A DNA stretch of 40,954 nt from assembly GCA_027067575.1 (NCBI GenBank), contig JAMOVQ010000098.1, positions 1 through 40,954 on the forward strand, written 5' to 3'. Each line of letters opens with the position of its first letter. Position 1 is the stretch's first letter. Source of the DNA: Thermoanaerobaculia bacterium. GTDB taxonomy: Bacteria; Acidobacteriota; Thermoanaerobaculia; Thermoanaerobaculales; Sulfomarinibacteraceae. Positions 17,970-24,555 of the stretch are shown here, one piece after another. Both the position numbers and the translations under genes were made by a program. The notes below the pieces were generated by a model. That model did not search any database. It was not told the origin of the DNA and saw only the letters and a program-made list of their open reading frames with translations.

Positions 17970-20900
17970 ATGGTGGAACGGAATCGTCGCGGCAGACCGT
18001 GGTCGCGGGCAGGCGTGAGCCTCCTGTTGGGGGCCGTGTGCCTTCTGGTGGCCGGATGGCTGGAAGCAGGCTGGACGGACGAGGCCCTGCACGTTCAGGG
18101 ACCCTCCATCGGCCTCTACAACGGGGACTACGTCTCGGAGTCGGCGGGTCTCGACACGTACTACGCCTTTTGGATCGAGGTTCCTCCTGGAACGGGAGAG
18201 CTCCGGATCTACCTTTACGACGCCGACATCGGCGGTGGTGGGAGCTCGGAGGCCCTCGATCTGACCAACTCGAACGCCACGGCGGTCCGCTACACCCTGA
18301 TCGACCCCACGGGCGCCGTGTTCACCACTGTCAACCTGCCTTTTGGCGCCTGTTCCACGTGCGACGATGCGTGGGCCTACATCGGAGGACCCTCGTCCCC
18401 CATGCCCGGTCACTGGGAGTTCCGGATCGACCAGAGCACAGGCGTTCAGAGTGGCGGAGGACCCTGGGACGATATCAACGTCGTGTGGCTGGCACCGTAC
18501 GATCCCGTCAACGGCGTGGAGCTCAACCTGTACGCCCGGAGCTACACCGCCATGGGGAACGTCATGGGAGGAGGTACGGTAACGTACGATCTGTTCCCGT
18601 GGGTCGTCTGCGGCTGCGAGGCGGATTCCAACGACTTCGACGCCGACGCCTCTGCAACCGGGACCACGATGACGATCTCAACCCGGTCAGGAGCCACCAC
18701 ATGGAGCCCAACGGCTTCGGGCGCAACCACCTGGGCCAACAACACCCTGGGGGGGTTCACGACCGATTCCGATTCGATCGACTACGGGATCTGGCATGTG
18801 GCCTACGATCTGACCACCACGAGTTCGTTCCCGTACAACTGGGGAACCTACGAGTTCGGAAACTGGGACGCGGCAGACCCCGCAGGCAGTGGACCACCCC
18901 CATCGGCTCAGCCGGAGGCGAACACGGCACGCCTGTACTTCACAACCCTGGATGGCGGGGGGGCCGATCCCCCGGAGGCACCCGCCAAGGAGTACCTCGA
19001 GCAGATGGTCCGCTACAGATCGGGCCCAACTCCCCCTCAGACGGGCCAGACCACCGTGGTCACCGTGACCGTCCGGGTCGCCAATCCGACGGCGTACCCG
19101 ATCGAGTTCTCCTCCAACCAGACGATCACCTCCTGGGTCCCCGGAGGCGATGCCGTGTATCACGGGAATCTCCAGCTCGGACAGGGTACGGTGATCTCTC
19201 AGCCTGCGCTCGGCGGATCGGGCAACGTCGTGTGGAACCCGGGTACCGTTGCGGCCGGAAGCACCGTGATCATGGCCTACGAGGTTGCCGTCACCCCCTC
19301 GGCCTCCGGTCAACGGGTTCCCGTCACGGGATGGCCTGGCAACCATGGCACGACGGCCACCTACGTCGATGGCACCTGTGCGGGTGCCGGATGCTCCGGC
19401 ACCCAGCTCGACAGCGCCACTGCCACGATGGGGCCCCTGTGCGGGCTCGCCATCACCGAGAACCAGGTGACTCACGCAGTGATCACAGCGTTTCGCCTGC
19501 TGGATGATGGCGGAGAAAGCGTCGTCGAATGGGAAACCGGATCCGAGGAGGGCACCCTGGGATATCGGCTGTTGCGGGATGATCGGGGACGCCGGGTGCC
19601 CGTCCTGGCGGCGGCCGTACCGGCTCTCTGGAATGCGGCTCGTGGTGGGACGTACCGTGTGCGAAGCTCTGCCATCGGACGCGAATCCCGGTCTACATTC
19701 TGGCTCGAGGAGCTGGAAGCCGGGGGGAAACGGATCCTTCATGGCCCCTACACCCCTTCCGTGGAGCCGATGCCGCGCGGATCTCAAGGTGAATGGCCGT
19801 CACGGAACCGAGAGTGGGAGCGCCATCCTCATGACGTGGTGCCCGCGCCCGATCCAATCCACCGGCCGTCGGGAACGTCCATGGACACTCGGGGGTCGGC
19901 CCTGGCTGTGGGCATCCGGGGCAGGGGCATGGCCCTTATCCCTGCGGAGTTCCTGGCTCGTGGAACGGGCCAGACCGAGGGGACGATCCGGCGGCTGATC
20001 CGCTGGGGACGGATCCGGCTCACCCACAAGGGCCAGCCCGTGGCCTGGAAGGCCGCGCCCCACGGCGCAGGACTGATCTTCTTCGCGCCAGGGCTGGATT
20101 CGCTCTACACGAACGAGGACGTCTTCGTGCTGTCCGTCAGCTCTCGTTCGGGAAGCATTCCTTCCCGGTACGCAGCAGCGTTCCCCCCGTCTTACGGCGG
20201 CACCTTCTCGTCGTCCATCCATGCCGAGGAAGATCACCTCGCGGCCACGGTACTCGGGCTGGATCCCGAATCCGACTACTGGTTCTGGACCGGACTCATC
20301 GCGGGAGATCCAGTGATGAATCACTGTGCTCTGCCTCTGGATGCTCCGAATCCATCTTCCGGAGAGGCCAGCCTGACACTTCGGTTCCAGGGAGCCTCCG
20401 ATACCGAAGGAGGTCGCCATGAGGCTCGGGTCCTGCTCAACGGCACCGAGCTGGGTACTGCAACATGGCAGGGACTGACCACCCATGAAGCGACGTTCTC
20501 GTTCGATGGAACACTGTTGGCGCGCGGGAGAACCAATACCGTGACGGTGGAGGCCAGGGCCACCTCTTCCTTCAGCGCGTTCTTCATCGATTCCATGGAC
20601 TTGCGGTACCGCAGGACATACCGGGTCGACCACGACGCTCTGTTCTTCGATGTCGCCGAACCGGGGGCCGTCACCCTGGAGGGCCCCGGAACAGCGGCCC
20701 TGCAGCTCTTCAACGTCACCGACGAGAGCCAGCCCGTCGAGTTGCAAGGAGCCCGATCCGGATCGGCTTTCACGGCCGATCTGACACCCGGGCGGTACGT
20801 TGCAGTTCCCGACGGGGGATTCCTCCAGCCCGCATCCCTGCGCGCCGTCAGCGAAGAGGACCCTCTCCGGAGGCCAGCAACGTACCTGGTGGTGTCTCCA

Positions 20901-22025
20901 CAGGCGCTTCGCGACGGGGCCAACAGACTCGCAGAACACCGGGAGAAGCGGGGACTGACCGCCGCCGTCGTGACGGTGGAAGAGATCATGGACCGGTACA
21001 ACGGTTCCATCTTCGATCCCCACGCGATTCAAAGGTTCCTCGAAGAGGCGTACCGTTCCTGGGATACCCCGCCCCGGTTCGTGGTCCTCCTGGGAACCGG
21101 TTCCTTCGACTACCGGGGGCTGCTGGGACCCGGCCGGCCGGGAGTGCCTCCCCTGCTTCTCAAGACCCCCCAGGGGTTGTACGCCGCCGATGGCCTGTTC
21201 ACCGATTTCGACGGCGACGGCGTTCCTGAGATTCCCGTGGGCCGGCTTCCGTTCACCGACCGCGACATCCTGGAGAAGTGGCTTCACCATGCGGAGATCT
21301 GGGAGACACGTGCCCTGCCTCCAACCCTTCTGGCTATCAGCGACGACCGGGAAGGGGCGGCGGACTTCACGGACGATGCAGCGTACGTCACGGGCGTGCT
21401 GCCGCGAGGGTTCTCCCGGACGTGGTCCGGCCTGGACCGGGACGATCTCACGACGGTCCGGGCAACGCTGTTCCGGAGCCTTGAGGGCGGCGTCTCTCTG
21501 GTCCAGTATTTCGGTCATGGCGGTTCCGATCGATGGGCTGACGAGGGGATTCTGACCGTGGATGACCTGGACGGCTCCCACGCATTCGGGGTTCCGCCGT
21601 TCGTCACCGCACTGACCTGTGCCGTCAACCGCTTCGAAATCCCCGGCTATTCATGTCTGGGAGAGCGCCTTCTCGACCCTGGTGATGGCGGTGCGGTGGC
21701 CGTCTGGTCGCCCTCCGGGCTGACGAGCCGCGCCGATCTCCGCAAGCTGGGCCGTGCGCTGGAGGGGGCCCTGGTCCTCCCGGGTGGTACCACTCTGGGT
21801 GAGGCGTTGCGGGAAGCCCTGTCGGTATTCCCGGCCGGAACAGATGGGACCACCTGCCGGCTGTTGTTCAACCTTCTGGGTGACCCAGCGCTTCCGGTGA
21901 GGTTTGACTGTCCAGGTGGCGAAAGCTCTCCCGACCTGCCGGGCGCGACGTCGGGATCCTTCTCGCCGCCGATTCCGTTGCCGGACGACGTGACCCATGC
22001 ACGGCCCGTCGATCCGGCCCGGTGA
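17970..22025 (+). CDS. C25 family (gingipain-like) cysteine peptidase, secreted, multidomain
   Basis: 'RFVVLLGTGSFDYRG', 'GLFTDFDGDGVPEIPVGRLPF', His motif 'VQYFGHGGSDRWADE' (His codon 21516) and Cys motif 'FVTALTCAVNRFE' (Cys codon 21618); signal peptide 'AGVSLLLGAVCLLVAGWLEAG'. Confidence 0.88.
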   Translation: MVERNRRGRPWSRAGVSLLLGAVCLLVAGWLEAGWTDEALHVQGPSIGLYNGDYVSESAGLDTYYAFWIEVPPGTGELRIYLYDADIGGGGSSEALDLTNSNATAVRYTLIDPTGAVFTTVNLPFGACSTCDDAWAYIGGPSSPMPGHWEFRIDQSTGVQSGGGPWDDINVVWLAPYDPVNGVELNLYARSYTAMGNVMGGGTVTYDLFPWVVCGCEADSNDFDADASATGTTMTISTRSGATTWSPTASGATTWANNTLGGFTTDSDSIDYGIWHVAYDLTTTSSFPYNWGTYEFGNWDAADPAGSGPPPSAQPEANTARLYFTTLDGGGADPPEAPAKEYLEQMVRYRSGPTPPQTGQTTVVTVTVRVANPTAYPIEFSSNQTITSWVPGGDAVYHGNLQLGQGTVISQPALGGSGNVVWNPGTVAAGSTVIMAYEVAVTPSASGQRVPVTGWPGNHGTTATYVDGTCAGAGCSGTQLDSATATMGPLCGLAITENQVTHAVITAFRLLDDGGESVVEWETGSEEGTLGYRLLRDDRGRRVPVLAAAVPALWNAARGGTYRVRSSAIGRESRSTFWLEELEAGGKRILHGPYTPSVEPMPRGSQGEWPSRNREWERHPHDVVPAPDPIHRPSGTSMDTRGSALAVGIRGRGMALIPAEFLARGTGQTEGTIRRLIRWGRIRLTHKGQPVAWKAAPHGAGLIFFAPGLDSLYTNEDVFVLSVSSRSGSIPSRYAAAFPPSYGGTFSSSIHAEEDHLAATVLGLDPESDYWFWTGLIAGDPVMNHCALPLDAPNPSSGEASLTLRFQGASDTEGGRHEARVLLNGTELGTATWQGLTTHEATFSFDGTLLARGRTNTVTVEARATSSFSAFFIDSMDLRYRRTYRVDHDALFFDVAEPGAVTLEGPGTAALQLFNVTDESQPVELQGARSGSAFTADLTPGRYVAVPDGGFLQPASLRAVSEEDPLRRPATYLVVSPQALRDGANRLAEHREKRGLTAAVVTVEEIMDRYNGSIFDPHAIQRFLEEAYRSWDTPPRFVVLLGTGSFDYRGLLGPGRPGVPPLLLKTPQGLYAADGLFTDFDGDGVPEIPVGRLPFTDRDILEKWLHHAEIWETRALPPTLLAISDDREGAADFTDDAAYVTGVLPRGFSRTWSGLDRDDLTTVRATLFRSLEGGVSLVQYFGHGGSDRWADEGILTVDDLDGSHAFGVPPFVTALTCAVNRFEIPGYSCLGERLLDPGDGGAVAVWSPSGLTSRADLRKLGRALEGALVLPGGTTLGEALREALSVFPAGTDGTTCRLLFNLLGDPALPVRFDCPGGESSPDLPGATSGSFSPPIPLPDDVTHARPVDPAR

Positions 22026-22035
22026 GGGGGAGTTC

Positions 22036-22266
22036 ATGGACAGCGGAAATATCGGGGAAAGCATGAAAGACTGCGGCATCGTCAGACAATCGTCGGGCGA
22101 CGAGTGTCGGATTCCTGGCGGCGGTGTCGCCGCCAGGGCCCGCCGTCCGTACGTCCCCCCACGGATTCTCAGCTCGGAGACGGTGGAAGTGGTGGCCTCG
22201 ACCTGTACGGGCCCAACGGCCAAGGCCACGCCGGTGGACTGCTCTTCTGGCCCGATCCAGAGCTGA
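22036..22266 (+). CDS. Small Cys-containing peptide, candidate RiPP-like precursor
   Basis: MDSGNIGESMKDCGIVRQSSGDECRIPGGGVAARARRPYVPPRILSSETVEVVASTCTGPTAKATPVDCSSGPIQS; GAGGGGG Shine-Dalgarno just upstream; 10 nt after the C25 stop and 7 nt before the kinase start. Confidence 0.7.
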   Translation: MDSGNIGESMKDCGIVRQSSGDECRIPGGGVAARARRPYVPPRILSSETVEVVASTCTGPTAKATPVDCSSGPIQS

Positions 22267-22273
22267 TCCGGTC

Positions 22274-23200
22274 GTGTCCGGCCTCGAACGGTTCGTACGA
22301 AGTCCGGCACGACTCGGCCTCTCGGTCCTCCTCCGTGCTGAGGGCGGGCGAGGCCTCAACCTCCAGATGCCGTTTGGAACCGTGATGCTGCGAGGTGTCC
22401 CGGCAACCTCCGTGTCCGTCCTGAACGACTGTTGGCGTTCGTGGTTCCAGCGGGGTCCGGCACCGTCATCCTTCGAGGAAAGTGTTCTGGTCGATGTGGC
22501 ACCAGTGGGACCGGACGAGTTCAGGGAGGCTGGAGAGATCGTCTGGGATCCATTTCTATGTGTGGAGCCGTCGCAGGACCGGGTTCAGGCCGCCGGATAC
22601 CGGTGGATGGCGGAGGTCAGACGCACCGTGCCGGTACGGGCTCGCCTTTGGCTGGACCGTACGGCCCGCGGATCGGTCCTTGGAGATCTCTGGGAAAACT
22701 TCCTGCGACTCGTCTCGGCGTACGCCGTCCTCGCTGAAGGCGGGTTGCTGGTCCACGGTGCTGCGGCCGGGTTCCCCGGTGAAGGTATCCTCTTCCCGGG
22801 CCCGTCGGGAGCAGGCAAGTCCACCATCTCCGGGATCCTCGAACGTGAAGGAGTTCAGATCCTCTCGGACGACTGCACGGCCATCGTCCGCTCGGACAAT
22901 GGTTACGGCGTGGCCGGTCTGCCGTTCGGTGGTGAACGTCGGCCCCGAAGACCACCGACGCGGCCGTTTCCACTCCGTACCATCTGCCTCCTCGAGAAGG
23001 CTCATGAGACCGCGACCCGTCCTGCACGGCAATCCGAGACCCTTGCCCGCCTCGTGGCCTCGTCTCCCTTCGTCAACGGTGACCCAGCCGTGCACTCGGC
23101 TCTGCTCGAACACGCCACGGCAATCGTCGGCGCCGTGAGGACCGTACATCTCCGCTTTTCCCGCTCCGGCGGTGTTGCAAGGGCGCTCCAGGCCCGATGA
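22274..23200 (+). CDS. HPr kinase/phosphorylase-like protein
   Basis: P-loop 'ILFPGPSGAGKSTISGILEREGVQILSDDCTAIVR'; 'LLVHGAAAGFPGEGILF'. GTG start at 22274 chosen because it follows the peptide stop. Confidence 0.78.
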   Translation: MSGLERFVRSPARLGLSVLLRAEGGRGLNLQMPFGTVMLRGVPATSVSVLNDCWRSWFQRGPAPSSFEESVLVDVAPVGPDEFREAGEIVWDPFLCVEPSQDRVQAAGYRWMAEVRRTVPVRARLWLDRTARGSVLGDLWENFLRLVSAYAVLAEGGLLVHGAAAGFPGEGILFPGPSGAGKSTISGILEREGVQILSDDCTAIVRSDNGYGVAGLPFGGERRPRRPPTRPFPLRTICLLEKAHETATRPARQSETLARLVASSPFVNGDPAVHSALLEHATAIVGAVRTVHLRFSRSGGVARALQAR

Positions 23201-23526: not shown

Positions 23527-23696
23527 CTCCTCGCGAGACCGTCTCACCCTGCCATGGAAGACCGAGCTCACCCGAGTACCCGTGACGATTCCGCGACAGC
23601 CCAGGAGAACGCCGCACATCTCCCTCGCGGCCCCCAGGAATCGGTTCATCCTCCCCCAGGTGGAGCCCCATGGAACTGAGACAGCGTTTCAAAAAG

Positions 23697-23715
23697 AAAG
23701 GGAGTGTCCCTTTTT
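23697..23715. repeat. Short interspersed repeat copy a (AAAGGGAGTGTCCCTTTTT)
   Basis: Matches copies at 24655, 29304 and 34555; imperfect palindrome. Confidence 0.75.
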
Positions 23716-23757
23716 CTGGCAGTACAATCCAACTCTTCGTATGGTACAATCCCACTG

Positions 23758-24008
23758 TGACCACGATAGATAGCCAGTTCTTCGGTGATTCCGAGGCGCT
23801 CCGGCAACGGTCCGAGAGCCTCTCGACCTTCGCCGAGTGGGACCGGGAGAACCCCGTCGTCATGGACCCCACCCGGGCCGTCGCGGCCGTCGCCTCCCTG
23901 TACCGCCTCATCCCCGCGGACGCACGCCGCCGGGAGGACGATCCCGACTTCGAGGGCGTGGGGCGGATGCTCGACGCCCTGGCCCGGCTCGGACGATCCC
24001 GTGGTTGA
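23758..24008 (+). CDS. Small protein upstream of a nucleotidyltransferase (putative partner)
   Basis: VTTIDSQFFGDSEALRQRSESLSTFAEWDRENPVVMDPTRAVAAVASLYRLIPADARRREDDPDFEGVGRMLDALARLGRSRG; overlaps the next gene (GTGGTTGA). Confidence 0.65.
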
Positions 24009-24555
24009 CCTGGAACGGGTCCTCGCCGATCTGGCCCGGCGGCTCGCGGCAGCCGGGGTTCCGTACATGGTGATCGGCGGCCTGGCCAACGCCGTCTGGG
24101 GCGTTCCCCGAAGCACACTGGACATCGACGTCACGGTGCTTCTCGACCCGGGAGAGACCGGCGCCCTCCTGGCGGCGCTCGGCCCCGCCTACCGGCCCCG
24201 GCCCGAGGACCCCGAGGCGTTCGCCGAACGGACGCGGGTCCTTCCCCTGCTCCACGAGGACGGTATCCAGATCGACCTCATCCTCGCCATGCTCCCGTTC
24301 GAGGAGGAGGCGATCCGCCGGTCTGTGGAAATCCCCATCCGGGGCGTCCCCGTCCGCTTCTGCACCGCCGAGGATCTCGTTCTCCACAAGCTCGTCTCCG
24401 ACCGCGAACGCGATCGCGACGACGTCGCCGGGATCATCCAACGCAACCGGTCGAGGCTGGACCGTGCATACCTCGATCCCCGCGTCGAGGAGCTGGCCTC
24501 CATCCTGGACCGCCCAGAGCTCGTCCACTGGTACCACCGGCTACTGGACGGCTGA
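24001..24555 (+). CDS. Nucleotidyltransferase-fold protein (AbiEii/MNT-like)
   Basis: 'VPYMVIGGLANAVWGVPRSTLDIDVTVLLDPGETGALLAAL' NTase signature; 'TAEDLVLHKLVSDRERDRDDVAGIIQ'. Confidence 0.82.
   Translation: MVDLERVLADLARRLAAAGVPYMVIGGLANAVWGVPRSTLDIDVTVLLDPGETGALLAALGPAYRPRPEDPEAFAERTRVLPLLHEDGIQIDLILAMLPFEEEAIRRSVEIPIRGVPVRFCTAEDLVLHKLVSDRERDRDDVAGIIQRNRSRLDRAYLDPRVEELASILDRPELVHWYHRLLDG

Follow-up and report, generated by a model that had tools for sequence, protein, structure and literature searches.

The window (the whole analysed stretch of 40,954 nucleotides, on contig C98) carries a run of three genes on the same strand, coding for a C25 peptidase, a short peptide and an HprK-like kinase, which are separated by gaps of 10 and 7 nt in the ORF calls (Table 1), as the preliminary description had reported. 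A ribosome-binding-like sequence, GAGGGGGAG, lies just 5' of the ATG of the peptide. The peptide has no signal sequence and matched no NCBIfam or Pfam model. The earlier statement that the window holds no radical SAM gene was confirmed, and neither a radical SAM nor a PqqD gene was detected in the window or on its contig; a lasso macrolactam cyclase was likewise not found in the window.

Table 1. Features of the window cassette and of related precursor loci.
Feature	Location	Strand	Details
C25 (gingipain/PorU-like) peptidase	17970..22025	+	1351 aa; PF01364 at residues 972-1309, E 6.5e-59
Precursor peptide	22036..22266	+	76 aa, ends DCSSGPIQS; >50 loci with homologues beside HprK/PqqD/radical SAM genes
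Predicted RRE-binding-type leader segment of the peptide, Y39 to A54	22150..22197	+	Conservation among 58 peptides
HprK/PEPCK-superfamily kinase-like protein	22274..23200	+	308 aa; H161, P-loop GPSGAGKST (K182), SDD (D199, D200)
Second precursor peptide	L089:10604-10831, contig C36	-	...KRPYSAPRVVHSEQVETLAGTCDTSGGGKGTGDPTCNLLRS; ends CNLLRS; between radical SAM gene and second C25 gene
RRE-precursor fusions	L125, L127, L130-L132, L134-L138, e.g. L134:4756-5157	+	Tail P.[IV].WREE...FAG.C...C....S

As the sole query, the window peptide retrieved peptides that occupy the cognate position elsewhere, in other genomes (phmmer 1.9e-10, 8.8e-10 and 2.5e-8), and it is therefore no chance ORF. Short ORFs around relatives of the kinase were picked by the leader motif with the C-terminus left unconstrained, and their phmmer values against the window peptide ranged from 1.9e-10 to 8.1e-7. 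The preliminary description had made its reading depend on whether homologous loci conserve the short ORF; they do, beside HprK-like genes and across phyla.

The precursors share the leader [YW]xxPx[ILV]...E..E..A..C, in fuller form YxxPx[IV][LIV]xxExLExxAxxC, with Y/W at position 0, P3, E9, E/D12 and A15 (56/58) conserved among 58 unique peptides. In the window peptide this motif reads Y39-VPPRILSSETVEVVA54 and is followed by the predicted core S55-TCTGPTAKATPVDCSSGPIQ-S76, which contains C57, K63, C69 and the terminal S76. Exactly two Cys follow the leader in 56 of the 58 peptides and four in the other two; a Cys stands at position 18 after the leader Tyr in 55/58, and a Lys lies between the first and the last Cys in 56/58. 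As expected of RiPP precursors in general, the 58 short peptides combine a conserved leader with diverse cores and lie beside radical SAM, HprK and PqqD genes. A second large peptide group was observed in other genomes of the phylum (L243-L258 and others), with the pattern Y[ED][RK]P.[IV][IV]...K.EARA..C.K....C..GPIQS; some of these genomes carry several copies, and the GPIQS ending is the same as in the window peptide.

The leader stands in the same register as the leader logo of the linear polyphosphorylated peptides (LPP), a system from Bacillota described in 2026 that comprises an HprK-like kinase, an RRE, an SpI-type peptidase, an NTP transferase and a transporter, and no cyclase (PMC13381572). 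The LPP leader, YxxPxVLxHQxIxFETxxS, is cut after T(-1) and the kinase acts on Ser3 (PMC13381572). A15 of the present leader corresponds to LPP T(-1) and C18 to LPP Ser3, and from this match a cut after A54 is predicted, which would leave the 22-residue core STCTGPTAKATPVDCSSGPIQS. The window peptide is very probably an RRE-dependent precursor.

The C-terminus was compared in peptides that had been selected on the leader alone. Of the 58 unique peptides 57 end in Ser, the exception ending in ...GPGSA, and after reduction of the cores to <60% identity the proportion was 35/36, against a background of 37/660 (5.6%) among the other predicted ORFs of the same loci. Chance or redundancy as the source of the terminal Ser was ruled out by the 35/36 diverse cores. 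A profile that included the C-terminus collected nineteen further peptides, of which 18 end in Ser and one in Thr. A sister group from the same order has PqqD ORFs whose own C-terminus is a precursor-like tail (e.g. PRIEWREELQQFAGKCHLIAGQSHQCNQHPGGS), with HprK and radical SAM genes after them; the fusion of substrate and RRE gives independent support for an RRE-guided precursor. Ser is the last residue in 8 of 10 such tails, and the other two end in Gln (L127) or Pro (L137) with intact kinases alongside. Because of these two tails and the single ...GPGSA peptide, the terminal Ser is not absolute. Decay of the kinase behind the few non-Ser tails was not supported, as the kinases there keep His, Lys and Asp.

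Known targets of HprK-like kinases are the C-terminal Ser of lasso precursors of the paeninodin type and Ser3 of BsfA (PMC10368454). Since the position of LPP Ser3 is occupied by Cys here, the terminal Ser is the natural acceptor, and in our judgement the window kinase probably targets the terminal Ser of the peptide, a reading for which the near-constant Ser ending is strong support. Other Ser/Thr residues are also present in the core, and the terminal Ser could be kept for another reason, e.g. recognition by a protease. The RiPP-like phosphopeptide system proposed in the preliminary description fits these data, since the short ORF is conserved near HprK-like genes, its terminal Ser is near-invariant and the [YW]xxPx[ILV] leader is present.

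The kinase was assigned to the HprK/PEPCK superfamily on its P-loop, catalytic His/Asp and fold. H161, G181, K182, T184 and D199 are invariant in 48 homologues. The AlphaFold model (pLDDT 88.9) has its nearest solved folds in PEPCK, which represents the superfamily's other arm, and a weak sequence match to HprK 1jb1 spans the H-to-SDD region. The best NCBIfam matches were ScmC (1.8e-8), HprK_rel_B (1.4e-6) and HprK_rel_A (8e-6), all well under the curated cut-offs, and the score for classical HPr(Ser) kinase (TIGR00679) was 20.1 bits vs a cut-off of 240. Relatives of the kinase occur in 101/297 genomes of the phylum; a window-kinase-like gene is present in 49/51 peptide-positive genomes vs 52/246 others (Fisher 4e-25, phylogeny ignored).

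Annotation of the related loci with purpose-built profiles gave a recurring set of a C25 peptidase, the peptide, an HprK-like kinase, a PqqD-type RRE and a radical SAM/SPASM enzyme, the last two assignments being backed by PF05402, PF04055 and PF13186. Among 55 non-duplicate peptide loci a radical SAM gene was found in 53, HprK in 51, PqqD in 48 and C25 in 39, counts that are affected by contig ends and by the fact that most loci were found via their radical SAM or HprK gene. Homologous peptides with the recurring set occur in Acidobacteriota, Myxococcota, Gammaproteobacteria and a Verrucomicrobium. Within the same family, three genomes carry the cassette, complete in two (L121, L123) and cut at a contig end in the third (L122), and one genome of the same order has two full cassettes (L119). 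The radical SAM profile was run against 84,980 species genomes and returned 80 loci, from Acidobacteriota (Thermoanaerobaculia, Holophagae), Myxococcota, Gammaproteobacteria (Competibacter, Sedimenticola, Thiodictyon, Solemya symbionts, Halioglobus), Desulfobulbaceae and one Verrucomicrobiae, together with more distant radical SAM loci without other cassette genes. No NCBIfam radical SAM model reached its cut-off for the cassette enzymes, and a lasso macrolactam cyclase is not among the recurring genes.

Two further functions are frequent in these loci. PF14907 NTP transferases (NTP_transf_5) are present in 20/62 peptide loci and an S26-like peptidase in 39/62, many of the latter also with C25. 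In the small S26-like proteins the nucleophile position is held by Cys (44) or Ser (9), and a His is conserved. Small S26/S24-like proteins adjoin the cassette kinase at L034:10463-10867, L143:7219-7731, L167:7505-7891 and about 40 other loci, with GxCMxP at the nucleophile and a conserved VHR; they are possibly leader peptidases with a Ser-to-Cys switch.

The remaining core functions were located on other contigs of the same genome. Contig C36 carries a radical SAM gene whose product shares 44% identity with the cassette enzyme of L034 (E 7e-78), next to the second precursor peptide and the second C25 gene (Table 1), with no kinase gene beside that peptide. Contig C176 carries a second HprK gene directly followed by PqqD. 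The cassettes on C98 and C36 lie about 12 kb or more from the contig ends, and the C176 pair about 4.6 kb from one end. There are four PqqD matches in the genome, none beside the window cassette; the RRE serving the window peptide is uncertain and would most likely be the PqqD protein of C176. C98, C36 and C176 together supply the core set, presumably acting in trans. The pathway of the preliminary description, minimal and without a radical SAM enzyme, was thus rejected as a complete one, because in relatives the cassette includes a radical SAM/SPASM enzyme along with a PqqD-type RRE, and the genome itself holds homologues of both on other contigs. No homologue of the S26-like peptidase was found in the genome (best E 0.03). 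At C179:28794-29437 (minus strand; L080/L260), one of the three other PqqD genes is directly followed by a lasso-B2-like Transglut_core3 gene (PF13471) beside a glmS-like gene, and neither a precursor nor a cyclase was recognised at this locus.

The cassette was then compared with known systems. It resembles LPP in its YxxPxV-type leader in register, its discrete RRE, its HprK-like kinase and the lack of a lasso cyclase, and the S26/SipW-type peptidase and NTP transferase functions are found in many relatives. It differs from LPP, whose description makes no mention of radical SAM (PMC13381572), in that nearly every peptide locus has a radical SAM gene and the majority have C25, that two Cys are conserved in the core and that the terminal Ser is near-invariant; moreover, core position 3 is Cys (55/58) instead of the phosphorylated Ser, and the hosts are mainly Acidobacteriota, Myxococcota and Gammaproteobacteria. 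With paeninodin-type clusters it shares the HprK-like kinase, the Ser-ended precursor, the YxxPx[L/I] leader and the discrete RRE, but it has radical SAM and C25 genes instead of the macrolactam cyclase, and the core is often without an acidic residue. In the window core (STCTGPTAKATPVDC...) the only Asp is at position 14, whereas lasso peptides have Asp/Glu at positions 7-9; with no cyclase and the acidic residue outside these positions, a lasso peptide was ruled out.

SynChlorMet and HPr-rel-A cassettes (NCBIfam TIGR04248-51, TIGR04352-53) likewise combine HprK-like and PqqD-like proteins, SynChlorMet also with radical SAM/SPASM, and ScmC is the best NCBIfam match of the window kinase. The scores are, however, far under the cut-offs (ScmC 34 vs 125 bits, ScmE 80 vs 400), none of ScmC, ScmD, ScmE and ScmF being found above cut-off, and the present peptides match no model and have a C25 partner. 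Sactipeptides/ranthipeptides and PqqE-type radical SAM/SPASM RiPPs are similar in the PqqD-type RRE, the radical SAM/SPASM enzyme and the Cys-containing precursor, and differ by lacking the kinase and terminal Ser seen here. No description of the combined gene set was found in the NCBIfam models or in the freely accessible journal papers covered. In that literature nothing relevant turned up on SynChlorMet or on C25/gingipain together with PqqD or HprK. The cassettes apparently form a widespread, undescribed RiPP class, whose products would be RRE-guided, radical-SAM-modified and C-terminally phosphorylated.

Two readings in which the window cassette is not part of such a class were weighed. 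It might be a decaying remnant in which C25, peptide and kinase persist without forming a pathway, as their separation from the radical SAM and RRE genes and the failure to find an S26-like peptidase homologue in the genome would suggest; we consider this very unlikely, as the three ORFs are intact with their catalytic residues, the peptide retains its leader, Cys pair, Lys and terminal Ser, and the complementary genes on C36 and C176 are intact. Loss of the other genes from an LPP or lasso-peptide pathway, with no separate class involved, is at least as improbable. The HprK-like kinase, the discrete RRE and the YxxPx[ILV] leader are common to all of these, the leader register is identical to the LPP logo and NTP_transf_5 genes recur in the peptide loci, but radical SAM accompanies the peptide in 53/55 loci and does not figure in the description of LPP, the phospho-Ser3 position is Cys, and 28/58 cores, counted from the first Cys, hold no Asp/Glu, so that no lasso isopeptide is possible there.

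Least certain is what the C25 peptidase does. Family membership is clear from PF01364 (200 bits vs a cut-off of 23) with the His (YFGHGG) and Cys (TALTCAVNRFE) motifs kept, and the score for the T9SS sortase PorU (NF033707) is 166.8 bits vs 420 (E 5e-49). From its hydrophobic N-terminal segment the enzyme is likely exported. The preliminary description had offered it as the processing enzyme, which is possible; many peptide loci, including most of the Myxococcota ones, have no C25 nearby, and an S26-like peptidase is common in the wider family. That C25 is the leader peptidase freeing the mature core is rather doubtful. Its adjacency and co-orientation with the peptide, the retained catalytic dyad and the missing S26-like homologue in this genome would agree with such a role, but C25 looks exported and the peptide has no signal sequence, and the S26-like Cys/Ser peptidase, LppS-related in type, often occurs in the same loci as C25. 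Since peptide systems without a nearby C25 exist, C25 is probably not a general leader peptidase.

Slightly better placed, and still unlikely, is a modified peptide that is no free natural product and serves as the dedicated partner of its own C25, as inhibitor, activator, secretion tag or surface anchor. C25 is on the strand of the peptide in 44/44 comparable pairs and upstream of it in 37, mostly immediately; peptide-C25 pairs are duplicated together in L155, L161 and L040 and across C98 and C36 of this genome, and loci with two peptides often have two C25 genes but one enzyme set. Two further C25 genes of the genome, L223 (C119) and L224 (C112), have near-identical dockerin-like C-termini (DVDCSG.IDA.DLAREV.YR.NGLY) and no peptide near them. 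Against such a partnership stand L156 and L045, with two peptides and one C25, and several Myxococcota and other loci that have peptide, kinase, RRE and radical SAM with C25 absent nearby. We favour extracytoplasmic processing of the mature peptide by C25, or a partnership with it; that C25 processes the peptide outside the cytoplasm is, in our judgement, somewhat short of an even chance. A speculative extension is a radical SAM-modified, C-terminally phosphorylated peptide made for its co-encoded C25 and attached, bound or cleaved at the cell surface.

The conserved peptide with its leader, Cys pair and terminal Ser, and the gene set that recurs around it, were established computationally. 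On this basis the following mechanism is proposed for the window cassette, and as a composite we regard it as reasonably probable. The window would hold one part of a dispersed RiPP pathway in which two parts carry a precursor. The YxxPxI leader would be bound by a PqqD-type RRE supplied from elsewhere in the genome, most likely from C176, which would present the peptide to the radical SAM/SPASM enzyme of C36 for modification of the core around the conserved Cys pair or between its members, and also to the adjacent HprK-like kinase for phosphorylation of the C-terminal Ser76. The leader would be removed near A54, by the S26-like peptidase in relatives and by some other enzyme here, and the paired exported C25 may, once outside the cytoplasm, have the mature peptide as its substrate or partner.

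If true, this would constitute a large and taxonomically broad RiPP class in which radical SAM chemistry is paired with kinase-installed C-terminal phosphorylation, and one leader architecture would link phosphorylated lasso peptides, LPP and radical SAM RiPPs. It offers a precise prediction, a phosphate on the last Ser, and would explain a group of C25 genes. Genome mining that relies on gene clusters would miss a pathway such as this one, distributed over three or more loci in a single genome.

Downstream of the cassette, a small ORF and a nucleotidyltransferase gene form a pair at 23670-24555 that is toxin-antitoxin-like in appearance. The nucleotidyltransferase (24004-24555) lies about 800 nt from the cassette, beyond the separate small ORF, and was rejected as an NTP_transf_5 partner, its best match being DUF6036 (6e-8) and its match to the cassette NTP transferases weak (7.9e-6); the two genes are likely an unrelated unit. 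A short palindromic repeat, AAAGGGAGTGTCCCTTTTT, is dispersed in the window at 23697, 24655, 29304 and 34555, four copies with <=2 mismatches where none is expected by chance.
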